Part shown: one piece after another, positions 23,070 to 45,307 of the stretch | Layout of the letters: each line of letters opens with the position of its first letter | How positions within the stretch are numbered: position 1 is the stretch's first letter | NCBI GenBank assembly: GCA_011042635.1 | Contig: DQWH01000050.1 | Coordinates: 1 to 46,092, forward strand | DNA: 46,092 bases | Reading direction: 5' to 3' | Origin: Bacteroidota bacterium | Lineage (GTDB): Bacteria > Bacteroidota > Bacteroidia > Bacteroidales > VadinHA17 | Notes under the pieces: generated by a model | Seen by the model: only the letters and a program-made list of their open reading frames with translations | Database searches by the model: none | Told to the model about the DNA's origin: nothing | Made by a program: the position numbers and the translations under genes

Positions 23070-23723
23070 TTACAGTTTATCCTGTGATTTTCCTTTCAAA
23101 AGGGGAACGAAAACAAAATATCCGTGTTCCTCCTTCTCATATTCATCCTCCCCCGTTTTCACCACCACCGTCATTACCTGTGATCCTTCGCCTCCCAGGG
23201 GAAGCACCATTCTTCCCCCTGTTTTCAGCTGTTCCAGTAGCTTTGGAGGAATCTCCCGGGCAGCCGCCGTAATCAGTATCCTGTCGAAAGGAGCAAAGGC
23301 GGGCAATCCCTCGGAGCCGTCACCGTAAAAAAAACGGGGCTTGTACCCCATGGCAGGCAGCAAAGACTGAGTTTTCAGAAAGAGTTCCCTCTGTCTTTCA
23401 ATGGTATATACCTTGGCTCCCATCTCCACCAGGATGGCCGCCTGATAACCGGAGCCCGTACCGATTTCCAGCACCTTGTCGTGCTTCCGCACCTGCAACA
23501 GCCCGGTTTGAAAAGCCACCGTATAGGGCTGGGAAATGGTCTGGCCGGCACCAATGGGAAAAGCCTGGTCGCGGTAGGCAAAATGAACGAATCCCGAATC
23601 CATGAACAGGTGGCGGGGCACCCGGCTCATGGCCTCAAGAACTCTTTCATCCTTGATTCCCTTGCTTCTTACTTCATCTACCAGCTTCTTTCTCAATCCC
23701 TTATGGCGGTATGTGTCGTGCAT
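23070..23723 (-). CDS. pcm: Protein-L-isoaspartate O-methyltransferase
   Basis: Repairs isoaspartyl residues in damaged proteins by SAM-dependent carboxyl methylation (217 aa). Seen: VPRHLFMDSGFVHFAYRDQAFPIGAGQTISQPYTVAF, which is the conserved substrate block, SAM loop VLEIGTGSGYQAAIL (84-98), YTIERQRELF, and ILITAAAREIPPKLLEQL near the C-terminus. Length and order are normal. Promoter box lies 24 bases before the ATG. Confidence 0.95.
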   Translation of the reverse strand: MHDTYRHKGLRKKLVDEVRSKGIKDERVLEAMSRVPRHLFMDSGFVHFAYRDQAFPIGAGQTISQPYTVAFQTGLLQVRKHDKVLEIGTGSGYQAAILVEMGAKVYTIERQRELFLKTQSLLPAMGYKPRFFYGDGSEGLPAFAPFDRILITAAAREIPPKLLEQLKTGGRMVLPLGGEGSQVMTVVVKTGEDEYEKEEHGYFVFVPLLKGKSQDKL

Positions 23724-23845: not shown

Positions 23846-24781
23846 ATGATCAAGATCGGCATCCTGGGCGGTGAGGCCAACGGAAGCAACGCCATTGACA
23901 TCATCAGGAGGATTCCTTCCTTTCGGCTGGTAGGATTTTATGATCCCGATCCCGTTCGCCGGGAAATGCTGGGCCGCACCTGCCATCTGCATTCATTCAG
24001 TGACCCGGAAATGCTGACCGGTGTGGCCGATGCCATCGATATCACCGGACCTCTATGCCAGTACCCTTCGGCCTTCAGGCAGGCGATCAGGGAATCCAAA
24101 CATGTGTTCCTGCACAACCCGTATACCGGCAAAGCGCAGGTGCTGCGCGAACTTCTTAAGCTCATCGGTGAAGCCAGAGGGATAGTACAGGTTTCACAAC
24201 CTAACCGGTTTAATCCGGCTTTTCTGGCAGCCTGTCCCTATATCAGAACGCCGGGATACATGGAATTCCAGAGGAAGATCCCTTTCCAGAGGGCAGGAAA
24301 CACGCAATCGCTGGTGTTGCAGTATCTGATGCACGATATTGATCTGGCCATGTACCTCACCCGTTCGAACATCAGGAAAAGCAGTGTTAGCGGTGTAAGG
24401 CTGGTTTCGGGCAAACCCGACCTGGTGGAAGCCCGGCTGGAATTTGAAAACGGATGCGTGGCCAATTTCATGATCAACCGGGTGGGGCAGGAACAAAGCC
24501 ACACCTGCCACCTGTACCAGACCGGTATGACCATCCGGATCGACCTGCTGCGGCAAACTGCAGAGATCCAGCACCTGAAAAATGCGGAATCAGGCACCGT
24601 ATCCGGTGCCCGCATAGCCACCGAACAACTGCTGGTAACCCCTTCCGATCCCCTGGCCGATGAGCTGATGAGTTTTCATACCTCCATACACAGCCGGCAA
24701 TCGCCCCAGGTGAACCTGGAAGATGCCTTCAGGGCCATGGAGGTTCCTCTCGTCCCGCAGGAACGGCTGAACTGGCTGTAG
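23846..24781 (+). CDS. Gfo/Idh/MocA-fold protein lacking the EKP catalytic lysine
   Basis: 311 aa from the ATG at 23846. N-terminal Rossmann domain (IKIGILGGEANGSNAIDII, VGFYDPD) and the C-terminal alpha/beta domain of the Gfo/Idh/MocA dehydrogenases; RFNPAFLAACPYI and LMHDIDLAMYL are kept from the group I associate with UDP-GlcNAc 3-dehydrogenase (GnnA-like) enzymes. The hallmark KHVxxEKP motif reads KHVFLHNP (86-93), so the catalytic Glu-Lys pair is His-Asn, and the first glycine loop is also unusual (GGEANGS instead of GxGxxG). It may be a non-catalytic or altered relative. A sugar-phosphate transferase gene follows 89 bases on, suggesting surface-sugar metabolism. Confidence 0.8.
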   Translation: MIKIGILGGEANGSNAIDIIRRIPSFRLVGFYDPDPVRREMLGRTCHLHSFSDPEMLTGVADAIDITGPLCQYPSAFRQAIRESKHVFLHNPYTGKAQVLRELLKLIGEARGIVQVSQPNRFNPAFLAACPYIRTPGYMEFQRKIPFQRAGNTQSLVLQYLMHDIDLAMYLTRSNIRKSSVSGVRLVSGKPDLVEARLEFENGCVANFMINRVGQEQSHTCHLYQTGMTIRIDLLRQTAEIQHLKNAESGTVSGARIATEQLLVTPSDPLADELMSFHTSIHSRQSPQVNLEDAFRAMEVPLVPQERLNWL

Positions 24782-24870: not shown

Positions 24871-26289
24871 ATGAAAAACAGGAAGCAGGTCCTGACCTAT
24901 CTGTTCTGGGATTTTTTTTCCGCAGCCCTCAGCTGGACCCTGTTCTTCGTTTTCCGGAAAATTATTATTGAGCCCCGTGTATTCGGCTATGCTGTCCCGG
25001 TAGAATTCGATGAAAGGTATTTTCTTGGACTGGGCGTGGTGCCGGTTTTCTGGATTTTCCTCTATCATACGGCCGGACTGTACCGGAACCTGTATCGCCG
25101 GTCGCTCCTGCATGAATTCGGAATGTCCCTGTTGATCACCTTGCTGGGCACCGTGGTCATTTTTTTCACCCTGATCCTCGACGATGTGGTATCGGGGTAC
25201 CGGCATTATTACCTTTCAGCTGCCGTGCTGCTGGCTTTGCATTTTCTTTGCTCCTACCCGCCGCGCCTGATCATTACAACCCGTACACGGAACAGGATCA
25301 GGAACGGGAAAATCGGTTTCCGTACCCTCATGATCGGCAGCAACGGCAAAGCAATGGACATTTACAGGGAGCTTACCCGCCCAGGCGGATATTCAGGGAA
25401 TATATTTTCCGGCTTTCTCATTCCCACGGGCAGGGAAAAGCCGGGCATGTTAAACAGGGAGCTTCCCCATCTGGGAACCATGGAAAACCTGGAACGGGTA
25501 ATAAAAAAACAACGCATCGAGGAGGTGATCATTGCCATCGAATCCCATGAACATGGCGAACTGGAAAAGATCATACGCCGGCTGGAACGGTATGATGTAC
25601 GCATACGCATTATTCCAAGCCTGTTCGATATCCTTACCGGGAAAGTAAGGCTGGTATCGCTGTTCGACGCCCCCCTGATGGAAATCTCAAGGGACCTCAT
25701 CTCCCCCTGGCAGGTAAGCCTGAAACGGATCACCGACATTTCCGTTTCCCTCATTTCTCTTCTGCTTCTGTCACCACTGTGTGCCGTTCTGGCCGTGCTG
25801 ATCAAACTGGACACCCGCGGCCCTGTCATCTACCGGCACGAACGCATCGGGCGTTTCGGAAAGCCTTTTACTATTTACAAGTTCCGTTCCATGATAGTTG
25901 GGGCCGAAGAGAACGGCCCTCAGCTCTCCAGTCGTAACGATCCCCGGGTAACCAGGGTGGGACGGTTCATGCGGAGGACCCGCCTGGATGAGGTGCCCAA
26001 TTTTGTCAATGTACTGAAGGGCGACATGTCGCTGGTAGGTCCCCGTCCGGAAAGGCAGTATTACATCGACCGGATCGTAAAACGGGCTCCCGAATACCTG
26101 CATCTGCAGCGGGTCAAGCCTGGGATCACCTCGCTGGGTCAGGTAAAATACGGATATGCCGGGAACCTCGATGAAATGATCCGGCGGATGAAATACGATC
26201 TGATCTATGTGGAAAACATGTCGCTGTTGATGGATATCCGCATCATAGCCTATACTTTCCTCACTATTATCCTGGGGAGAGGCATCTGA
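24871..26289 (+). CDS. Polyprenyl-phosphate sugar-1-phosphate transferase (WcaJ/WbaP type)
   Basis: Initiating enzyme of exopolysaccharide or O-antigen synthesis, moving a sugar-1-phosphate from UDP-sugar to undecaprenyl phosphate (472 aa). Four N-terminal spans within 1-130, a Rossmann-like CoA-binding-type domain about 140-270 (LMIGSNGKAMDIYREL, EEVIIAIESHE), a hydrophobic re-entrant helix near 290-310 and the catalytic C-terminal domain with YRHERIGRFGKPFTIYKFRSM split over 325-345, then RRTRLDEVPNFVNVLKGDMS and LVGPRPE. All residues of the bac_transf domain appear intact. Sugar specificity is not inferable. Its TGA abuts the TGA of thpR in the palindrome TGATCA. Confidence 0.92.
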   Translation: MKNRKQVLTYLFWDFFSAALSWTLFFVFRKIIIEPRVFGYAVPVEFDERYFLGLGVVPVFWIFLYHTAGLYRNLYRRSLLHEFGMSLLITLLGTVVIFFTLILDDVVSGYRHYYLSAAVLLALHFLCSYPPRLIITTRTRNRIRNGKIGFRTLMIGSNGKAMDIYRELTRPGGYSGNIFSGFLIPTGREKPGMLNRELPHLGTMENLERVIKKQRIEEVIIAIESHEHGELEKIIRRLERYDVRIRIIPSLFDILTGKVRLVSLFDAPLMEISRDLISPWQVSLKRITDISVSLISLLLLSPLCAVLAVLIKLDTRGPVIYRHERIGRFGKPFTIYKFRSMIVGAEENGPQLSSRNDPRVTRVGRFMRRTRLDEVPNFVNVLKGDMSLVGPRPERQYYIDRIVKRAPEYLHLQRVKPGITSLGQVKYGYAGNLDEMIRRMKYDLIYVENMSLLMDIRIIAYTFLTIILGRGI

Positions 26290-28157: not shown

Positions 28158-31100
28158 ATGCCAAAGATCGAATCGCATCCGATACTCGACATCAAAAAAG
28201 GAGAACAGGTCACGTTCCTGTTCGAAGGGAAAAAGATTACCGGAGAAAAGGGAAGAACCATAGCGGCTGCCCTGCACCAGGCCGGATATTCTGTACACAG
28301 CCACAGCCTGTCGGGCAGGAACCGGAGCCTGGAATGCGGCATCGGTAAATGCGGGGCCTGCGAAATGCTCGTAGACGGAGTCATCAGGCGAATATGCATC
28401 ACACCTGTAGACGGAGTGAAAGAAGTAAAAGAAATCCCCTCCGATTATCAGCCGCAGGTAACGGAATACAGGAAAGCAGAGCCTTTCAGGGTGTACAAAA
28501 CCCGGGTGGCCATTATCGGGGCCGGACCAGCCGGACTGGCAGCCAGAGAAGTGCTGAATGAACACGGGATCGAGAACATCGTGATCGACAATAACGAGCA
28601 AATCGGCGGTCAGTTCCTGATGCAAACCCACCAGTTCTTCTTCTTCGAAAAGGAGCAGAAATTCGGCGGCATGCGTGGATTTGACATTGCCCGCACCCTG
28701 ACCGGAGAGAACCACGAAGGGATCTTTCTGAATTCTACCGTGTGGGATATCCTGGAAGGCGGACGTCTGGCCGTTAAGAACATCCGCACCGAAGAAATAT
28801 ATTATGTGGATACCGAGCATCTGGTGGTGGCCACCGGAGCCGTGCCTTTCATGCCCACTTTTGAGAACGACGACCTGCCCGGGGTATATACGGCTGCGGT
28901 GGTACAGAAAATGATGAACATAGAGTTTACCCTGCTGGGGAAGAAGGTTCTCACGGTAGGCGCCGGGAACATCGGCTACCTTACTTCCTACCAGCTCATG
29001 CAGGCTGGTGCCAGGGTAGTGGCCATCCTCGAGGCGCAGGACCACGAAGGAGGTTTCCCCGTACAGGCCAATCGCGTACGCAGGCTGGGTATTCCCATCC
29101 TCACCTCATACATCTTGCTAAAAGCCATCCCCAATGAAAACTATGACGGCATTACCGGAGCAGTGATTGCCCGCTGTGAGGATTTCAAGCCGGTCCCCGG
29201 TACGGAACAGGTTCTGGAAGGCATTGATGCCATCAATATCTGTACCGGTCTGGTGTCCGATGATCAGCTCCTGATCAAAGGCCGGGAGATTTTCGGCCGG
29301 AACTGCCACGGAGCGGGCGATGCCATCCGCATCGGAGAAGGAACCAGCGCCGTTCTACGCGGGAAACAGGTGGCTTTCGATATCCTGCAGGAACTGGATG
29401 AAAAGTACGATTATGACCGGTACCTGGCCATTTCCAAGGAATACATCGATTCCCAGCAACATCCGGTAAAGGTGCTGGAAAAACCTTTTCTGCCCACACC
29501 GGAAAGAATGCATGCCAGGCCGTTTGTGCTAATCGACTGCCTATACGGATTTGCCTGCAACCCCTGCCAGTTTGCCTGCCCGCACGGAGCCATTACCAAA
29601 ACCTCCTCCAGCACCGTGCCCCTCATTGATTTTGATAAATGCACGGGATGCATGCAATGCGTATACCAGTGCCCAGGACTGGCCATATTCGGGTACAATC
29701 TGAAAAAAAACTGGCTTTTCCTTCCGGTGGAATACGAAGTGGAAGAAGGAGCCGCCGTGTTCCTGGTGAATAATGAGGGAGAAAAACTGGGAACCGGTAC
29801 GGTGGATAAAGTGCTGCGGAAACCCAATAAAACCCATGTGGCCCGGGTCAAATCCCATGATCTTTCAGGCGGAGCCCTGCTGAAAGCCAGGGGATTCATT
29901 CTTCAGGAACAGTACCCTGAACCCCTTTCCCTCCATGAAGGCAATCCTTCCGGGAAAAGTCCGCAATATATCTGTCATTGCGATGACGTAACCCTGGACG
30001 AGATCATGGAAACCATCGGGAACAGAAAATTCATATCGGTGGATGAAATCAAGCATACCACCCGTCTGGGTATGGGTGCCTGCCGGGGTAAACGATGCAT
30101 CAAAAGGCTGAAGCAGACGCTGGACGGGAAAAAAATCGCCCTGGTGGGAGAAGCCACTCCGCGCGGGCCCCTGTCAAACCAGGTGAACATCGGCGAACTG
30201 TATCCCAGGGATAAACATGAACAGATCATTCCGGTGGTTGCCGGTAAAAGTATCCTGAAAAAGGAAGTGAAAACCCTGGTGGCCGGAGGAGGTATCGGAG
30301 GAAGTGCCCTGTTCCGTTACCTGGCTGAAGCCGGAATGGAACCCGTTCTGATCAATTACGGAAGGGGAGCATCGTGGAGGAATATTGCCGGAGGCCGCCC
30401 CAACTTCAGTGTACCCGAACTGGCCGACATTGCCCGGCATAATCTGGATATTTTCAAGGAATTACAGAATATCGGGAACATCGATTTCCGTTCAACCCGT
30501 TATGTCACCTTTGCCCATGACGAGGCTACCCGCGATATCCTGCTAAAATCACTGGAATGGTCGGATGGCTATTTTGTAGAACCTGCAGACTACCACAAAA
30601 AGATCAGCCCCTTTCTCAATAATAAAATGGATATCTACCTCGGTGCCCTGATCACCCATGACTGCTGGCAGGCTACGCCCGGCCGGGTGATTGATCTGAT
30701 CAGAACCCTGGGAATAGAAATCGGCGGAAAAGTGCTGGAAGATTGCCAGCTGATCGATGCAGTTAAGGAAAACGGCAAATTCCGGATTCTGGTCCGGGAT
30801 CATGACAGGCAGTACATTGAATACACCGCTGAAAACTTCATCAATGCCATGGGCCCGGAGGGTGGAGAAGTCGCCCGTAAAATGGGAATAGAAACCGGTC
30901 TGTTCCCTGTGAAGCACCAGGCCTTTATTACCCGACGTCTTCCCTACCTCGGACTGGACAACAATCCGCTGGATATGCTGATTGACAGAAGAAACTATAA
31001 AGGATTCGTGGCAGTTTACGGCCAGCAACTGGGAGAAACCGGCCAGATCATCGGCTGTGCATCACCGGCTGTGGAACCGAACGAAACAGGGAAAAACCTG

Positions 31101-31391
31101 AAGATCAACTCCAAAGAATTTATCGAGATCATCTCGGAAGTGTTCGTGAACTGGCTGCCCGAGCTCTCTTCTGTAGGATTTCAGGCAGTATGGGCCGGGT
31201 ACTATGTGGAACCGCGCATGATTATCGATCCGCAGGAAGGGCTTTTCCTTGGCCTTCGGGGACAGGGGTTCATGCTGGCCCAGTATCTGGCAAAACTTTA
31301 TGTGGACCACCTGACCGGGAAAAAGGTGCCGGATTATTTCCACCGTCTTTCCCTGCATGGCGACGGTCTGCTGGAAAAAGCCTTCAAATAA
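28158..31391 (+). CDS. Giant iron-sulfur flavoprotein: fused HcnABC / hydroxyproline-dehydrogenase-type subunits
   Basis: 1077 residues joining what are usually three separate subunits. In order: a [2Fe-2S] domain with Cys60, 65, 68 and 80 (HcnA/gamma-like); an FAD/NAD(P)-type disulfide-reductase domain with dinucleotide loops GAGPAG (121-126) and GAGNIG (268-273) (HcnB/alpha-like); a two-cluster ferredoxin with Cys461, 467, 470, 474 and 495, 498, 501, 505; a BFD-like [2Fe-2S] domain with Cys606, 608, 642 and 647; and a D-amino-acid-oxidase-type FAD domain from about 703 (TLVAGGGIGGSALF) to the end (HcnC/beta-like). Characterised relatives oxidise glycine, proline, D-hydroxyproline or opines. 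All cofactor motifs look intact. The inserted eight-Cys ferredoxin suggests electrons leave to ferredoxin or a quinone. The substrate is unknown. Confidence 0.85.
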   Translation: MPKIESHPILDIKKGEQVTFLFEGKKITGEKGRTIAAALHQAGYSVHSHSLSGRNRSLECGIGKCGACEMLVDGVIRRICITPVDGVKEVKEIPSDYQPQVTEYRKAEPFRVYKTRVAIIGAGPAGLAAREVLNEHGIENIVIDNNEQIGGQFLMQTHQFFFFEKEQKFGGMRGFDIARTLTGENHEGIFLNSTVWDILEGGRLAVKNIRTEEIYYVDTEHLVVATGAVPFMPTFENDDLPGVYTAAVVQKMMNIEFTLLGKKVLTVGAGNIGYLTSYQLMQAGARVVAILEAQDHEGGFPVQANRVRRLGIPILTSYILLKAIPNENYDGITGAVIARCEDFKPVPGTEQVLEGIDAINICTGLVSDDQLLIKGREIFGRNCHGAGDAIRIGEGTSAVLRGKQVAFDILQELDEKYDYDRYLAISKEYIDSQQHPVKVLEKPFLPTPERMHARPFVLIDCLYGFACNPCQFACPHGAITKTSSSTVPLIDFDKCTGCMQCVYQCPGLAIFGYNLKKNWLFLPVEYEVEEGAAVFLVNNEGEKLGTGTVDKVLRKPNKTHVARVKSHDLSGGALLKARGFILQEQYPEPLSLHEGNPSGKSPQYICHCDDVTLDEIMETIGNRKFISVDEIKHTTRLGMGACRGKRCIKRLKQTLDGKKIALVGEATPRGPLSNQVNIGELYPRDKHEQIIPVVAGKSILKKEVKTLVAGGGIGGSALFRYLAEAGMEPVLINYGRGASWRNIAGGRPNFSVPELADIARHNLDIFKELQNIGNIDFRSTRYVTFAHDEATRDILLKSLEWSDGYFVEPADYHKKISPFLNNKMDIYLGALITHDCWQATPGRVIDLIRTLGIEIGGKVLEDCQLIDAVKENGKFRILVRDHDRQYIEYTAENFINAMGPEGGEVARKMGIETGLFPVKHQAFITRRLPYLGLDNNPLDMLIDRRNYKGFVAVYGQQLGETGQIIGCASPAVEPNETGKNLKINSKEFIEIISEVFVNWLPELSSVGFQAVWAGYYVEPRMIIDPQEGLFLGLRGQGFMLAQYLAKLYVDHLTGKKVPDYFHRLSLHGDGLLEKAFK

Positions 31392-37901: not shown

Positions 37902-38783
37902 ATGAAAGCTTATTTATTTCCCGGGCAGGGTGCCCAGTATCCAGGTATGGGAAAAGATCTTTACGATTCCCTGCCGGAAGCCCGCGAACTATTTGAGTCA
38001 GCCAACCGCATCCTGGGATTCCGTATCACCGATCTGATGTTTGAAGGAACGGACGAGGACCTTCGCCAGACACGGGTAACCCAGCCTGCGATTTTTCTGC
38101 ACTCCGTGATCCTGGCCAGGGGACTGAAGGACAGTTTCCGGCCCGAAATGGTGGCGGGACATTCGCTGGGAGAATTCTCCGCCCTGGTAGCCGCCGGAGC
38201 CCTGAATTTTGAAGATGGTTTGCAACTGGTAAGCCAGCGTGCCCTGGCCATGCAAAAGGCCTGCGAAGCTGCTTCATCCACTATGGCAGCCATCATGGGG
38301 CTGGAAGATACCCTGGTGGAAAAAACCTGCCGGGAGATATCCGGGGTGGTGGTGCCGGCCAATTTCAACAGTCCGGGGCAGGTGGTCATTTCCGGCTCAA
38401 TAGAAGGAGTGAAAGAGGCCATTGAGAAACTCACCGAACTGGGGGCCAAGCGGGCCATTCCTCTGAAAGTGGGAGGAGCCTTCCATTCGCCCCTGATGGA
38501 ACCAGCCCGGGCTGAACTGGAAAAAGCTATCAATAAAACCGGTTTCCGGGCACCGGTGTGCCCGGTATATCAAAATGTGGATGCCCTTCCCTCCACCGAT
38601 CCGGAAAGCATCAGGAAAAATCTGGTAGCCCAGCTCACTTCGCCGGTAAGGTGGACACAAACCATAGAAAACATGATCCGCGACGGGGCCACCATTTTCA
38701 TAGAAGTAGGACCGGGCAATGTGCTTCAGGGACTTCTGAGAAAAATAAACCGGGAAATCCCGGCCAAAAGTGCCGCCCTTTAA
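37902..38783 (+). CDS. fabD: Malonyl-CoA:ACP transacylase
   Basis: Transfers malonyl groups to acyl carrier protein for fatty-acid synthesis (293 aa). Seen: YLFPGQGAQYPGMGKDL at the N-terminus, nucleophile Ser88 in VAGHSLGEFSALVAAGAL, VTQPAIFLHS with the conserved Gln, NFNSPGQVVISG, and the catalytic His in VGGAFHSPLM. It is not beside other fab genes here. Its TAA overlaps the TAA of the opposite-strand gene within TTTAAA, so the two share terminal bases. Confidence 0.96.
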   Translation: MKAYLFPGQGAQYPGMGKDLYDSLPEARELFESANRILGFRITDLMFEGTDEDLRQTRVTQPAIFLHSVILARGLKDSFRPEMVAGHSLGEFSALVAAGALNFEDGLQLVSQRALAMQKACEAASSTMAAIMGLEDTLVEKTCREISGVVVPANFNSPGQVVISGSIEGVKEAIEKLTELGAKRAIPLKVGGAFHSPLMEPARAELEKAINKTGFRAPVCPVYQNVDALPSTDPESIRKNLVAQLTSPVRWTQTIENMIRDGATIFIEVGPGNVLQGLLRKINREIPAKSAAL

Positions 38784-41700
38784 ACGGGCAGGTTCCCCGG
38801 ACTGGATATTTCTCCCGGTTTCATGATCACCCCACGCCGGTGCTTCCCGTCGATCTGTACCTTGATGGGCTGGTCGAACCTGATATGCCTCACATAATCG
38901 TCTTCGTAGGCAGCTTTCTGTTTTTTCAAAAAGTCCAGGTCATAATATCCTTCGTTGATATAAGGATTGATGGTAAAATATCCTACCCTGAAGGAAGTGA
39001 GGTTATGGAAGAAATGTGTTCCCTGACTGGGATCGATCCGGTAATCTTTCAGTCCCGATTCCACAATGACCCTAGCCATGGAAATCTGGGCCCACTTTGT
39101 GGGAATACCCAGCCAGGGATCGTTTGATCCCCAGCGACCCGGGCCTACCAGCACATAATTGCGGTTTTCTTTTTGAAACCGGTCATTCAGCTTTTCGATT
39201 GATGAAGCAATCCGGTCGCTTTTCGAGCTGTCGAAGGTTTCAGGTTTTACATAGATCAGGTCGGCTATACCGGCAATAATACCGTTGCCCAGTGCCGAAT
39301 CGGAAATGATAATGGCTCTCTCCGGAGGTATCTCCTGCAGTTTGAACTCTCTGGTCTGGTCATTGTCCACAATAGGGCGTATCTGAAGGAAATTGAAGAT
39401 TCGTGGATACCCTTTCGGGACATCCATATTCACGGCAAATTCAATTTCGATGGGACTATTCATTTCCTTCTGGCCCATTTCCAGAAGGGAATTCAGTATC
39501 TCAGGCAGGGGAAACTGGTTATGCCGCAATATTCCGGCAAACGACACAATGCTTTTCCCTCCTTCCTGATACCCGTCGCGGATCATATGGCTGTGATAAT
39601 CATAGGTTGATACTACATATTTTCTGAACAGGGGATCATTTTCAGCTTCTTTGACAGGAAGCTTCAGTATGTTCACCCCGTCGTCGGTGGAAGGGACAAA
39701 ACTATCCAGCGACATATCGAGGGCATAGAACCTTTTCTGGGTGTCACGCAGGGCCAGGTCAGGATCGGAAAGCTGAAGGATTTTCTGGGGATATTTGGGG
39801 GAGAACCTGAGGGAAGCTCCACCGTCCACAATCAGTTTCCCCAATCCGTAAGCTATGCTGGCTATTCCATCTTCGGGCATTTCTGGCTCGATGGGATAAA
39901 AATTGATGGAACGGGCCACTCCGCTGAGCGTGGGGTAAAACCGGTTCCCGTACTGCCGGCCACATACTTCCTGAAGAATGATCCCCATTTTTTCCTCATC
40001 AATCACATTGGCCGTAGCCATCATATAGGCCTTGCTGCTCTTGTAATACACCGAGGCATACACTTCCTTGATGGCATCGGCCAGGTATTTGATCATCACC
40101 GTATTATCATTTACCCGCGGGATCATGTAGGTAGAGTATATTCCTGCAAAAGGCTGGTAATGACTATCTTCCAGCTTACTGGAAGAACGGATAGCAATAG
40201 GATTCTTCACCACTCCCAGAAATGCATAGAGATCCTGGTAGATCCTTCCCGGGAACTGGGCGTTCACAAAACGCTGCAGTATCTCCTCATCGGGCAGGTC
40301 AGACAGGGCAATCTTGTAAAGTTCATTCATTTCCATGAACTCATCGAAAATGTCTGTACTCAGCACCACCGTACGGGGTATGGTGATCAGCACATCGGAA
40401 TGTTTGAAGAAAATGTTGTTCCTCTTGATAATGGAATTCACAAATGCCAGCCCCCGGGCTTTCCCTCCGATGGATCCCTCCCCTATCCGGCTGAAAATAA
40501 GGTATTCGTCGAAGCTGCTCTTGTCGAATTTGGCTATCACCCCCCGGCCTTTCCCCATCCGGAAACTGGAAATAGCCTGATACACAAACTTCCTCACCTC
40601 GTCGAGATTGTGGAAATCTTCCAGGCGAAGGAACTTGAACATCTGCGCTATGGGAAACAAAGCCCTGGCATTCAACCATTTTGAAAAATGGTTCCGGCTG
40701 GTATGGTATTCCAGGGTGGCATCGGGAATGGAATACAGCATTTGCTGGAACGACTGCAGATCGGTTGCCCTGCCGATTTCTTTCATGGTGGCAGGATCGC
40801 GGAAAATGAACGGCCCAAAAGCCAGCTGGGTGATGAAATAGTTCTGCAGTTCCAGGGTGATGGTTTTGGAGTATTTGTGCACAAAACCCACTCCCAGTTC
40901 AGTAGCCACGGCAGCATTTTTCAGGTCGGACGACTGCAAAAGGAAAGGCATGTGATCAACATCTTCCCTGATCTTGCGGCACAATCTGATCCCAGCCTCG
41001 GGGTCTTTTGTCCCTTTTCTTTTGAAACTGATATCGGAAATCACTCCCAGCAGATTATACTTGTATTTCTCGTATAGCTGTATAGCTTCCTCATAGTTGG
41101 TAGCCAGGAGTATTTTCGGGCGTCCCCTCATGCGAAGCATCTTCTGGTGTTCGTTCAGGGCTTCGCGCTGGAATTCCTTCGATTGCTTCAGTACAATTTT
41201 GTACAGCACCGGAAGGTAAGAGGAAATATACCTGATGGAATCTTCCACGAGCAGAATAGCCTGAACGCCAACCTGTTCAATATCGTAATCGGCATTCATA
41301 CGGTCCTCTATCAGCTTGATAATGGCTACCAGCAGGTCAGCGTTCCCAAGCCAGCAGAAGACATAATCAATAGCCCGGAGGTCTTCCTTCTCCAGCTTCA
41401 TGCTCACCTCACGCGAAAAATAGGTCAGCACCACAATGGGGATACGGGAATATTTTTCTTTGATCTTATGAGCCAGCTGAAAAGGATCCATATCGGCTAC
41501 ACTCAGCATGGAAATAACCAGATCAATACTTTCCTTCTCCAGAATCTCAAATGCTTCGCGTGCCGTATTGGTCTGAATAAAGACCGGCGGATACCGCAGG
41601 TTCAGGGAAACGTATTCATTGAAAATCTGTTCATCGATCCGGCCGTCCTCTTCCAGCATAAAGGCGTCGTAATTACTGCACAACAAAAGCACTTTATGAA

Positions 41701-41794
41701 TACGGTTCTGCATCAGGAGATTGAAAGAAGTCTCGCTGAAATCGTACTTCTTCATGTCAGCATATATGGCCGGATAATCAATTGGCATATTCAT
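38780..41794 (-). CDS. Pseudo-receiver + receiver + PEP-synthase-type ATP-grasp protein (1004 aa)
   Basis: Shorter of two adjacent paralogues. Residues about 32-168 are a receiver-like domain in which the phospho-acceptor position (DLVISM, Met96) is not Asp. Residues about 178-320 are a second receiver with acidic pair Glu184-Asp185, acceptor Asp254 (VISD), Ser288/289 and Lys307, and an insertion of about 30 residues near 200-225. After a linker (325-435), 438-830 match the PEP-synthase/PPDK nucleotide-binding domain: GSIGGKARGLAF, PIAIRSSSKLEDS and QPFAGIYSTYM. The C-terminus has a distinctive block VLVGPGRWGSNDPWLGIP. The swivelling phospho-histidine and PEP-binding barrel of true PEP synthase are absent. 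Three bases follow the upstream paralogue's stop, so they form one operon. Enzymatic role unknown. Confidence 0.85.
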   Translation of the reverse strand: MNMPIDYPAIYADMKKYDFSETSFNLLMQNRIHKVLLLCSNYDAFMLEEDGRIDEQIFNEYVSLNLRYPPVFIQTNTAREAFEILEKESIDLVISMLSVADMDPFQLAHKIKEKYSRIPIVVLTYFSREVSMKLEKEDLRAIDYVFCWLGNADLLVAIIKLIEDRMNADYDIEQVGVQAILLVEDSIRYISSYLPVLYKIVLKQSKEFQREALNEHQKMLRMRGRPKILLATNYEEAIQLYEKYKYNLLGVISDISFKRKGTKDPEAGIRLCRKIREDVDHMPFLLQSSDLKNAAVATELGVGFVHKYSKTITLELQNYFITQLAFGPFIFRDPATMKEIGRATDLQSFQQMLYSIPDATLEYHTSRNHFSKWLNARALFPIAQMFKFLRLEDFHNLDEVRKFVYQAISSFRMGKGRGVIAKFDKSSFDEYLIFSRIGEGSIGGKARGLAFVNSIIKRNNIFFKHSDVLITIPRTVVLSTDIFDEFMEMNELYKIALSDLPDEEILQRFVNAQFPGRIYQDLYAFLGVVKNPIAIRSSSKLEDSHYQPFAGIYSTYMIPRVNDNTVMIKYLADAIKEVYASVYYKSSKAYMMATANVIDEEKMGIILQEVCGRQYGNRFYPTLSGVARSINFYPIEPEMPEDGIASIAYGLGKLIVDGGASLRFSPKYPQKILQLSDPDLALRDTQKRFYALDMSLDSFVPSTDDGVNILKLPVKEAENDPLFRKYVVSTYDYHSHMIRDGYQEGGKSIVSFAGILRHNQFPLPEILNSLLEMGQKEMNSPIEIEFAVNMDVPKGYPRIFNFLQIRPIVDNDQTREFKLQEIPPERAIIISDSALGNGIIAGIADLIYVKPETFDSSKSDRIASSIEKLNDRFQKENRNYVLVGPGRWGSNDPWLGIPTKWAQISMARVIVESGLKDYRIDPSQGTHFFHNLTSFRVGYFTINPYINEGYYDLDFLKKQKAAYEDDYVRHIRFDQPIKVQIDGKHRRGVIMKPGEISSPGNLPV

Positions 41795-41797
41795 TCT

Positions 41798-44700
41798 TCA
41801 ATCATTTTTTCCGTTATCCACATGATTCAGGGTAATCACCGCAATGCTTTTTTTCCCGTCCATTTTGACCTGAAGGGGACGGGCAAAACGGACGTGCCTG
41901 AAATATTTCTTTTTTTCCACCAGTTCCTGTTCTCCGATAATATCCCAGTTGATGAAATCGCCCGGCGACTTATGGTTCACACTGAGGTATCCCACATTCA
42001 TTGAAGTTACGTTATGGAAGAAATGCGATCCCAGGGAAGCATCGAGAGGGAATTCTTCCATGCTCATCTCGACGATCACTCCTGCGTTCGATATCTGCGA
42101 CCACACCACCGGGATTCCGATAAAGGGGTCGCGTGTTCCCCACCGGCCGGGACCTATCAGAATATATTTTCGACCCAGATCGAGCATGGCGGCATTTATT
42201 TCTTCAATTTCAGAAATCATCCCCCGGGTCTTTGTCTTGTCGAACAGGTCCGGTTCCACGTAAATCACATCCTGAATATTTTCTATCAATCCGTTCCCCA
42301 TGCTCCGCTGTGAGAACAACAGAATATCTTTCCTCGGAATCCGGTCGATATCCACCTCATAATCTGTCCGGCTGCCTACCATGGGTTTGATCTGAAGAAG
42401 GTAGAACGAAGCCAGTCCATCCTGATCCTTTTCCAGGTCCACTGCGTATTCAATTTCCACCGGTGACCCAAGAGCTTCCTGCACTACTTCCAGGATTACT
42501 TTGATGGTATTGGCCAGGGGGACATAGTCATATTTCAGGATATTGGCAAAATTGATGACCCGTGGACCGTTTGCATCCAGGCCCGGTTCAACTCTGTCGT
42601 TCACCGGGTCGTATACGGAAGCCATGTACTTCAGTGTCCCGTGCTTTTCGGCTTCGGAGATATCCAGACACACCAGACCGGCATCTTCTCCTTCCAGCAG
42701 GTTAATTTTCTTTTTACTCATGTCCACTGCATAAAACCTCACCTGGGTATTTTTGTGAAGTTCTTCCGGAGTCAGTATATCCAGACGGGGATAGGAAGGA
42801 GAAAAACGATAAGCTCTTTCTCCCTCCACTACATACTGTCCCAGTCCCACAGCCGCTACCGCAAGCCCTTCTTCAGGCTTCATATGGGAAATGGGGTAAT
42901 AATTATATGACTGGGCGGTGCCGCTGATATGCGGATAGTAAGCTTCTCCGTACTGATTCCCCACCACTTCCTGCATCACAATGGCCATTTTTTCCTCCTC
43001 GATCTTGTGGTTGATGGCCATGAAGTAGGTCCTTGCATCGTTCGAATAGATGGATGCATACACCAGCTTGATGGCATGAACCGCCTGCATGTATCTTTCT
43101 TCAAAATCAGGATGATTGTTCGGAAGCATGTAGGTTTCAAACACCCCTGAAAAAGGCTGCATCAGGGAGTCTTCAAACAGGGAGGAAGAACGAATGGCTA
43201 ACGGGTTATCAATCAGTTTCAGAAATACTTTCAGTTTTTTCTCCAGGTTATAGGAAATTTCTGCATTCAGAAATGCCTGTCTGATCCTGTCATAATCTGT
43301 TTCCTGATATACCACATCATACAGGTGGTTTCTTTCCATGAAAATATCGAACTCATCTGTTCCGATGATGGAGGTGCGGGGTGTACGGATCCTGATGTTG
43401 GGGGTCAGACGGGAAAAGCCAAAATGATATATCAGGGTATTGATAAATGCCAGTCCCCGTCCTTTTCCTCCCAGGGAACCGCCTGCAAAATTCACAATAT
43501 TGCTTTCATCGAGCACGGCTGTTTCGTCAAAATTGACGATTTTTCCTTTTTCTTTCTCGTTGCGGTATTTGTGTATGATCCTGATAAGAAATTCACGAAG
43601 TTCCTCTGGGCTGCTGAAATCAGTTATTTTCAGAGGATTGATGATTTTGGCAATCTGTATCTCTCCACGGGCCATCAGCCAGAGCGAAAAGTGGTTCTTC
43701 ACACCGTGATAGACCAGGGATTCTTCGGGAACCGTGCGGAGGTATTGCTCAAACTCACGCATGCTTTTGGCCACGGCTATCTGTTTCCCCTGCTGGTCCC
43801 TGTATACGAAATGTCCAAAACCCAGGTGGTAATTGATAAAACTTTTCAGTTCCTGTATCAGGCTTTCCGAATTTTTATCGATAAAAACTGCCTTCAACCG
43901 GTGGGCAAGCTCCGCATTTTGCGGATCGGACGATTGCAGAACAGCCGGAAGATTGCTGATTTCGTTTTTCACGAAACGGATAAAATCAACCCCGGCCATT
44001 TCATCCAGTTTTCCGTTTCGGGGAAAGCGTACATCGGAAATAACACACAGCAGGTACTCTTTGTATTTGGTAAAAAGCCTCAGGGCTTCTTCATAGGTCG
44101 GAGCAAGCAGTATTTTGGGTCTTGCCCTGAGTTTCAATACTTTATACAGATCATCCGTGCTCACATCCTCAATGATCCGCTGGGTTTGCTCAAGCACAAC
44201 AGAATACAGCAGGGGCAGGTAACGGGAATAGTATATGGGACTGTCTTCCACCAGCAGGATAACCCGCGTCAGACCTATGCGGGTATCATTATCGGCGTTT
44301 ACCTTATCTTCCAGCAATTTGACCATGGCAAAGAAAACCTTTGAATCGCCGTTCCATACATATACATGATCCACCGCTTTCAGGCATTCAGCTTTGCTTT
44401 CCAGGCACTCATAATCCCTGTTGTTATTGAGCAACAGGAAAACCGGAATATACGGATATATTTCCTTGACGCGACAGGCCGTTTTCAGCGGCGTTTTCTT
44501 ATCCATTCCCATCATCACAATGATGAGGTCGAAATGTTTATATTTCAATCGTTCAAAGGCTTCTTCCTGAGAAGAGACTCCGGTTACCCGGGGCATGGAG
44601 GTAAGGTTCAGCTGATGATACTCTCCCAGGATATGGTCGGAGAATCTACCTTCTCCTTCAATGCAGTAAGCATCGTATAATGTGGCAACAAGCAGAATCT

Positions 44701-45307
44701 CATGTACCTTGAAGGGCATCAGATCATGAAAAATATCCCGGGAAGCATTGTGTTTATCGAGAAATTGCTGCAAAAGCTGCCGGCTGCTGGTAGGTTCCTG
44801 TTCCTCTTTCAGGAATTCTTCCTTATTGAATGGTTGCGGCCTGCTTCTCCGGATAATTTCCCTGGCCCTGAAACTGTTGATATACCCGGCAATGATATTG
44901 GCCAGAGTATTGATCAGGTCTCGTTCTTCTTTCAGGAAGGGCCCCTCATCCATTTCAGGGAATTCACGGGTATAACATACCTCAATTTCTCCTTCCTCAT
45001 CCCCGATGGTACTGAATTTCTGTGACTGTATCCACCGGGTTTCAGAAAAATTGGGCGAAAGAAACACCTGTTTATTGAAGGTGATACGAGCTCCCGCAAA
45101 ATCATGATATTGCCAGGCCAACGGAATGATCAGAACAATCTGTTTCAAAGATTCTTCAATGGGTTTCCCCTGCTTGAGGATGTTGGTTGTTTGATTGATG
45201 CATGCCAGTTCCTTTGTCCTTTCCTGTTTTTCAGCCAGGACCTTTGCCATTTCCTGCTCCATGCGGCTTTGCATTTCAGGATCGTGCCGGTTCGGATGCT
45301 CACTCAT
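41798..45307 (-). CDS. GAF-like + pseudo-receiver + receiver + ATP-grasp protein (1169 aa)
   Basis: Larger paralogue and first gene of the pair. It adds a charged helical start (5-35) and a GAF-like domain (about 36-145, ending FLKEERDLINTLANIIAGYI as in sensor kinases). Then come a degenerate receiver (about 200-335, Met265 where Asp is expected), an intact-looking receiver (about 347-495: Glu354-Asp355, Asp425, Ser459/460, Lys478), a linker, and the ATP-grasp domain with GSLGGKGRGLAF, LAIRSSSLFEDS and QPFSGVFETYM. The end again has ILIGPGRWGTRDPFIGIP. Same domain order and the same Met substitution as its partner show an old tandem duplication. Such proteins are often labelled PEP synthase, but the missing domains make that activity unlikely. 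Confidence 0.85.
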   Translation of the reverse strand: MSEHPNRHDPEMQSRMEQEMAKVLAEKQERTKELACINQTTNILKQGKPIEESLKQIVLIIPLAWQYHDFAGARITFNKQVFLSPNFSETRWIQSQKFSTIGDEEGEIEVCYTREFPEMDEGPFLKEERDLINTLANIIAGYINSFRAREIIRRSRPQPFNKEEFLKEEQEPTSSRQLLQQFLDKHNASRDIFHDLMPFKVHEILLVATLYDAYCIEGEGRFSDHILGEYHQLNLTSMPRVTGVSSQEEAFERLKYKHFDLIIVMMGMDKKTPLKTACRVKEIYPYIPVFLLLNNNRDYECLESKAECLKAVDHVYVWNGDSKVFFAMVKLLEDKVNADNDTRIGLTRVILLVEDSPIYYSRYLPLLYSVVLEQTQRIIEDVSTDDLYKVLKLRARPKILLAPTYEEALRLFTKYKEYLLCVISDVRFPRNGKLDEMAGVDFIRFVKNEISNLPAVLQSSDPQNAELAHRLKAVFIDKNSESLIQELKSFINYHLGFGHFVYRDQQGKQIAVAKSMREFEQYLRTVPEESLVYHGVKNHFSLWLMARGEIQIAKIINPLKITDFSSPEELREFLIRIIHKYRNEKEKGKIVNFDETAVLDESNIVNFAGGSLGGKGRGLAFINTLIYHFGFSRLTPNIRIRTPRTSIIGTDEFDIFMERNHLYDVVYQETDYDRIRQAFLNAEISYNLEKKLKVFLKLIDNPLAIRSSSLFEDSLMQPFSGVFETYMLPNNHPDFEERYMQAVHAIKLVYASIYSNDARTYFMAINHKIEEEKMAIVMQEVVGNQYGEAYYPHISGTAQSYNYYPISHMKPEEGLAVAAVGLGQYVVEGERAYRFSPSYPRLDILTPEELHKNTQVRFYAVDMSKKKINLLEGEDAGLVCLDISEAEKHGTLKYMASVYDPVNDRVEPGLDANGPRVINFANILKYDYVPLANTIKVILEVVQEALGSPVEIEYAVDLEKDQDGLASFYLLQIKPMVGSRTDYEVDIDRIPRKDILLFSQRSMGNGLIENIQDVIYVEPDLFDKTKTRGMISEIEEINAAMLDLGRKYILIGPGRWGTRDPFIGIPVVWSQISNAGVIVEMSMEEFPLDASLGSHFFHNVTSMNVGYLSVNHKSPGDFINWDIIGEQELVEKKKYFRHVRFARPLQVKMDGKKSIAVITLNHVDNGKND

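Follow-up and report, generated by a model that had tools for sequence, protein, structure and literature searches.

A dehydrogenase-fold protein without its catalytic Lys and Asp occupies an ancestral slot beside an initiating sugar transferase gene in Bacteroidales and is probably a retained pseudoenzyme

Degenerate single members of the Gfo/Idh/MocA family are already on record. One of them is OxiC of Corynebacterium glutamicum, for which the accessible sections of PMC9603128 report no inositol dehydrogenase function and an unknown role; the same sections give the catalytic triad of B. subtilis IolG as Lys97/Asp172/His176. The triad of a scyllo-inositol dehydrogenase is again Lys-Asp-His (K106/D191/H195), and the available excerpt of PMC5969746 states, as data not shown, that each of the corresponding alanine mutants was inactive. 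No publication on the locus described below, or on recurrent loss of the Glu-Lys-Pro (EKP) motif, was found in the literature searched, which covered few subscription journals.

The window, that is, the whole stretch of 46,092 nucleotides analyzed here (contig DQWH01000050.1 from a Bacteroidota bacterium), contains at 23846-24781 (+) an open reading frame that we assigned, from the ORF list, Pfam, AlphaFold and structure alignment, to a Gfo/Idh/MocA-fold pseudo-dehydrogenase. The product is 311 aa long when counted from its ATG; the mechanical alternative start is a TTG located 72 bases upstream. The preliminary description of this DNA had proposed a Gfo/Idh/MocA protein with HNP at residues 90-92 and the loop GGEANGS at residues 8-14, and both were confirmed. 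The N-terminal Rossmann domain was matched by PF01408 (34.3 bits; Pfam cut-off, 24) and PF22725 fell just below its cut-off (26.2 versus 27 bits). The AlphaFold model showed a complete, confident fold (pLDDT 86.2, pTM 0.84; a canonical protein, with EKP intact, gave a pLDDT of 94.7), whose best solved structural matches were GnnA chains (Foldseek TM 0.87-0.88). Alignment of the model with GnnA 7bvj extended over 297 residues (Z 34.2, 22% identity), showing that the C-terminal α/β domain is present as well. By sequence, the closest solved relative was also 7bvj, titled GnnA of Acidithiobacillus ferrooxidans, and the best PDB sequence match of the canonical Bacteroidota profile was again GnnA. 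The best NCBIfam model was UDP-GlcNAc 3-dehydrogenase (NF040723), at 57.9 bits against a curated cut-off of 450, a cut-off that the canonical member L115 likewise failed to reach (171 bits).

HMMER alignments revealed that E-K-P and D-x3-H are common to the canonical Bacteroidota profile, GnnA and two inositol dehydrogenases, and placed the canonical catalytic positions at K91, D159 and H163. In the window protein, HNP replaces EKP (residues 90-92; 24113-24121, +), the catalytic Lys91 being Asn, and alignment to the canonical proteins and GnnA showed that Gln159 (24320-24322, +) replaces the catalytic Asp of D-x3-H. The dinucleotide loop GGEANGS (residues 8-14; 23867-23887, +) departs from GxGxxG by a Glu at position 10, where the second Gly is expected; many canonical relatives read GAGHLGK. 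HDID, which the preliminary description listed among the fold positions kept, is present at residues 163-166 (24332-24343, +), but since D159 of the D-x3-H pair is Gln, it covers a single residue of the triad, His163. The window protein retained 36 of 66 listed positions that are invariant among 17 canonical proteins, and His163, Asp164, Asp166 and an RFNP stretch are among the residues kept. Thus, a catalytic motif is missing from a conserved fold, as expected of a pseudoenzyme. The earlier suggestion of a non-redox protein is well supported at the sequence level, given that the catalytic Lys, the catalytic Asp and the second loop Gly are gone and that the slot relatives are degenerate in various ways, and we infer that the window protein would have no dehydrogenase activity. 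Chance and assembly or sequencing error were ruled out as the origin of HNP, because HNP and GGEANG recur in an orthologue with 90% identity from another genome (G001; the window genome is G000).

To place these changes, a scan of genome contigs for relatives gave 55 loci. EKP was found in 39/39 of the Bacteroidota loci L032-L070, and all 15 of the more distant loci L071-L085 retained the Lys (12 EKP, 3 DKP), while L031, from a genus-mate of the window genome, read HNP. L031 and contig C48 of G001, alike in length and content, are apparently the same contig, and HNP was therefore counted for G000 and G001, two genomes in all. Among 17 canonical proteins, the mean column identity was 65% and dozens of columns were invariant, 66 of which were listed and used for mapping. 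Canonical proteins are 30-36% identical to the window protein, and the mapped invariant positions are colinear and gap-free up to residue 233. The canonical Bacteroidota protein is a strongly conserved, GnnA-like relative of UDP-GlcNAc 3-dehydrogenase that retains EKP, and its gene is often found between PCMT (see below) and an initiating sugar transferase gene. Two overlapping ORFs take the place of a single canonical gene in L166 (from G163) and in L067; these loci, which have contigs of equal length (56,219) and identical sugar transferases, are probably one record.

The gene for the window protein lies in a conserved chromosomal slot. The adjacency to an initiating sugar transferase noted in the preliminary description was correct: the next gene on the same strand, at 24871-26289 (+), 89 bases downstream, encodes an initiating polyprenyl sugar-phosphate transferase (TIGR03025, 384 bits; Bac_transf and CoA_binding_3). 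The other border is formed by a divergent protein-L-isoaspartate methyltransferase gene (PCMT; 23070-23723, −), identified by domain matches and locus comparison. The gene order PCMT, Gfo, (lipoprotein-like gene), sugar transferase was common to canonical and degenerate copies, and the window has this order minus the lipoprotein-like gene. Among 72 family genes in the compared loci (one locus, L031 and L086, having been entered twice), 25 lay immediately upstream of the sugar transferase gene and on its strand, 28 were followed by the lipoprotein-like gene and then the sugar transferase, 17 were located elsewhere and 2 lay at a contig end; a simple script that took the longest ORFs delimited these loci, and neighbouring genes were identified from BLAST clusters. 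The lipoprotein-like protein (L033:7087-7962 and homologues; ~300 aa), which at those 28 genes separates the canonical GnnA-like gene from the sugar transferase, has a PEGA match that is weak at best (E 0.02), and its N-terminus, judged by eye from one protein, reads as that of a putative lipoprotein. With the single L033 protein as query, no match was obtained in 36/36 of the family genomes searched. No promoter or terminator was predicted between the window ORF and the sugar transferase on their strand, which is weak evidence at best, as is the scan itself, in which the site count was no higher than in shuffled sequence. Elsewhere in the window, 28158-31391 (+) encodes a 1077-aa protein fusing 2Fe-2S, pyridine-nucleotide oxidoreductase, BFD-like and FAD-dependent (DAO) domains, and 38783-45307 (−) encodes two adjacent large proteins that both carry PPDK_N; a response-regulator domain is present in one of them and a weak DUF5752 match in the other.

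Next to this conserved setting, EKP loss was general in the window's GTDB family (f1), for which the slot or the PCMT region was read in 38/98 genomes, the window included. EKP was lacking in 22/22 of the slot proteins examined (19 by alignment, 3 because the string EKP does not occur in them), and GxGxxG was kept in 0/19 of those aligned; one slot copy, that of G065, is known solely as a search match. The possibility that HNP marks a conserved subfamily, raised in the preliminary description, was not borne out: HNP occurred in two genomes of one genus, relatives read KNP, NYP, DFP, SLP and DHP, and TRI, IRT and others were found at the same position. We therefore regard HNP as one of many routes by which one gene lost its active site.

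Some f1 genomes have no gene in the slot at all. Twenty further f1 regions were taken at PCMT, of which 4 contained a slot gene, 1 ended before the slot and 15 were empty, the latter belonging to five genera (g2, g6, g7, g8 and g10); in 11 of the 15, PCMT was directly adjoined by a sugar transferase, 6 of these transferases being full-length and 5 short. These empty sites agree with a slow decay, in which the dehydrogenase was dispensable and the slot copy is eroding toward loss with no present function. The same explanation would fit the fast long-term divergence of the degenerate slot proteins, whose median identity was 21% (96 pairs) versus 60% for canonical proteins (141 pairs) at a sugar-transferase identity of 0.5-0.6, and the absence of any Pfam match at 0.1 in 4/7 of the degenerate copies scanned. 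Considering the low identity and the 15/20 empty regions, long-term constraint on the slot protein is weak. However, decay does not agree with the estimate of selection. For the window gene, dN/dS was 0.135 (95% bootstrap 0.087-0.207; Nei-Gojobori, G000-G001 pair only), indicating that, in this one pair, the gene is kept by selection. The same pair gave 0.147 for the sugar transferase, 0.156 for ddl, 0.046 for PCMT, 0.133 for an MBL-fold protein, 0.271 for ThpR and 0.104 for ElbB. Eight other within-genus slot pairs ranged from 0.087 to 0.348, both extremes being unreliable with a dS >1.5. The 30 residue differences between the G000 and G001 proteins were distributed as 10 in residues 1-120, 4 in 121-240, 8 in 241-270 and 8 in 271-311. 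The slot ORF is intact in nine of the genera sampled (1, 3, 4, 5, 9, 11, 12, 13 and 14), and this and the confident, complete predicted fold also argue against erosion, so that slow decay, although the main rival to a retained pseudoenzyme, appears unlikely.

Alteration of EKP was not confined to f1. The canonical profile matched 102/247 genomes of the wider order at 1e-30, and 20 regions were read, 19 of them new. In other families we found EPA (G175), KNI (G182), YPT (G238) and ETP (G134), together with DKI in G338, where the lysine is kept and the site was scored as lost since the string EKP is absent. In G232 (ENP) and G183 (EQP) EKP was altered in a protein that is otherwise near-canonical, and graded intermediates kept 50/66 (G183), 45/66 (G232) and 41/66 (G014) of the invariant positions. 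That an unrelated Gfo paralogue took over the slot is disfavoured by these intermediates and by the score of the window protein against the canonical profile (213 bits). The slot-protein tree had very long branches and gave warnings, and for this reason we relied on the sugar-transferase tree, which comprised 74 rows (39 EKP, 29 lost, 6 empty). On this tree, EKP versus not-EKP required 5 changes, 3 of them forced by well-supported branches, when the 6 empty slots were taken as not-EKP, G183 (EQP) as lost, and G049 as EKP despite its degenerate loop and D-x3-H. Thus, the EKP site was probably lost several times in the order. The empty slots formed one group (98/98). Loss of the lipoprotein-like gene was considered as a trigger and found to be unsupported, the gene being still present beside altered motifs in G175, G182, G338, G232 and G183.

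A different possibility is that the window protein is still an active enzyme, perhaps with another substrate, in which other residues have replaced Lys91 and Asp159. Migrated catalytic residues occur in some pseudoenzymes, according to the part of PMC10211241 available, and His163, Asp164, Asp166 and RFNP are retained. We compared 16 EKP-less representatives with 45 canonical proteins; the representatives were picked for EKP loss, so that Lys91 is kept in 0/16 by construction. K105 is commoner in the representatives (14/16) than in the canonical proteins (15/45) and is the only hint found of a possible substitute lysine. It is not a new residue, however, because a third of the canonical proteins have it, and it sits within the predicted helix 97-109 (AlphaFold). 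At position 91 the 16 representatives have N, L, Y, H, R, F, S, A, P, T or Q, their other triad residues vary too, and the dinucleotide-loop Gly is Glu in the window protein, all of which makes an active enzyme improbable. Structural positions survived in most representatives (G203 in 16, G30 in 14, F289 in 14), whereas H118 and R219 were each kept in 0/16, in this case not by construction. Position 118 is His in 45/45 canonical proteins and Asn in 10/16 representatives, 8 of which are from f1. It is possible that positions 118 and 105 have acquired new conserved roles in the slot proteins.

A second, intact copy was found in part of the family. In the canonical-profile survey of the 98 f1 genomes, for which the per-genome best scores are complete, six genomes (G003, G009, G011, G018, G020 and G026) scored >500 bits, the next best genome scoring 264 bits. 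All six intact EKP copies sit in a lipid A gene cluster and nest among canonical proteins on the slot-protein tree, as a group with 100/100 support. The proteins of the G009 cluster read as putative LpxD, LpxC/FabZ, LpxA and LpxB, and the other five contigs have the same gene clusters as far as they extend. Only LpxA matches over the cut-off were counted, because a control matched 14/14 genomes at a loose threshold; LpxA was over the cut-off in G009, G003 and G011, and in 11/11 of the genomes given. An lpxB-like gene accompanies the intact EKP gene in 6/6 of loci L087, L089, L091, L095, L109 and L010, some of which are cut by a contig end, and a ~383-aa protein without a Pfam match is encoded in five of them (not L089). 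In G218, from another family, an EKP copy also adjoins an lpxB-like gene. Considering the location in the lpx cluster and the similarity to GnnA, the substrate of the canonical enzyme is likely of the UDP-GlcNAc type. Besides the EKP copy linked to lpx genes, each of the six f1 genomes has a slot copy, and it could be imagined that the slot protein forms mixed oligomers with the intact paralogue and tunes it; this is very improbable and would not explain the window organism, because a canonical-profile search found no canonical copy in G000 (81% complete) or G001 (98% complete), and the lipid A cluster is collinear but without the insert in both, as it is in G014 and G012.

Combining the computed evidence on descent, chromosomal slot, lost catalytic residues, fold prediction and purifying selection within the genus, we conclude, with a probability of roughly 0.68, that the window gene encodes a retained pseudoenzyme in an ancestral slot, derived from a Bacteroidota GnnA-like UDP-sugar dehydrogenase, with a fold selected for a non-redox role. 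Keeping its slot, the gene has lost the dinucleotide-loop Gly, catalytic Lys and catalytic Asp of the ancestral dehydrogenase, whose substrate we infer to have been a UDP-sugar, and selection for the non-redox role would have maintained the fold. Most likely, the protein would act through binding, partnering the adjacent sugar transferase either in response to sugar nucleotides or in a structural capacity; this link is positional, and against it stand the 17/72 family genes without transferase linkage. The sugar-nucleotide-binding or regulatory role put forward in the preliminary description is plausible in view of the GnnA-like descent and the neighbouring transferase, and the similarly disarmed relatives in the same place by a surface-sugar gene suggest that a former enzyme was recruited for a function without catalysis. 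A bolder and doubtful extension is that, in one order, the dehydrogenase of a conserved surface-polysaccharide locus repeatedly became a non-catalytic regulator that binds the ancestral UDP-sugar, gates the transferase and thereby sets polysaccharide initiation. An intact enzyme, graded catalytic loss and an empty site all occur in one slot, which makes the path from enzyme to pseudoenzyme readable, and open to experiment, in proteins that occur in nature. If annotated by their family name, such slot proteins would be labelled oxidoreductases, a label that is probably wrong for most of them. The canonical GnnA-like enzyme itself is uncharacterised and found across Bacteroidota, by surface-polysaccharide genes and, in some genomes, by lipid A genes.

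Gal80 of yeast, another degenerate single member on record, is a Gfo/Idh/MocA-fold protein that is regulatory and not catalytic; unlike the window protein, it is a eukaryotic transcription regulator. OxiC, as described in the accessible sections of PMC9603128, shares with the window protein an incomplete GxGxxG and a missing catalytic Asp, but it is a single protein in an inositol setting, and those sections do not mention loss of the catalytic Lys. GnnA (UDP-N-acetylglucosamine 3-dehydrogenase of A. ferrooxidans, PDB 7bvj/7bvk) has the whole fold in common with the window protein, but its EKP, GVGHLG and D-LMI-H correspond to HNP, GGEANG and Q-YLM-H in the latter. The canonical Bacteroidota GnnA-like protein occupies the same slot between PCMT and the sugar transferase; unlike the window protein, it has an intact active site and its gene is often followed by the lipoprotein-like gene.
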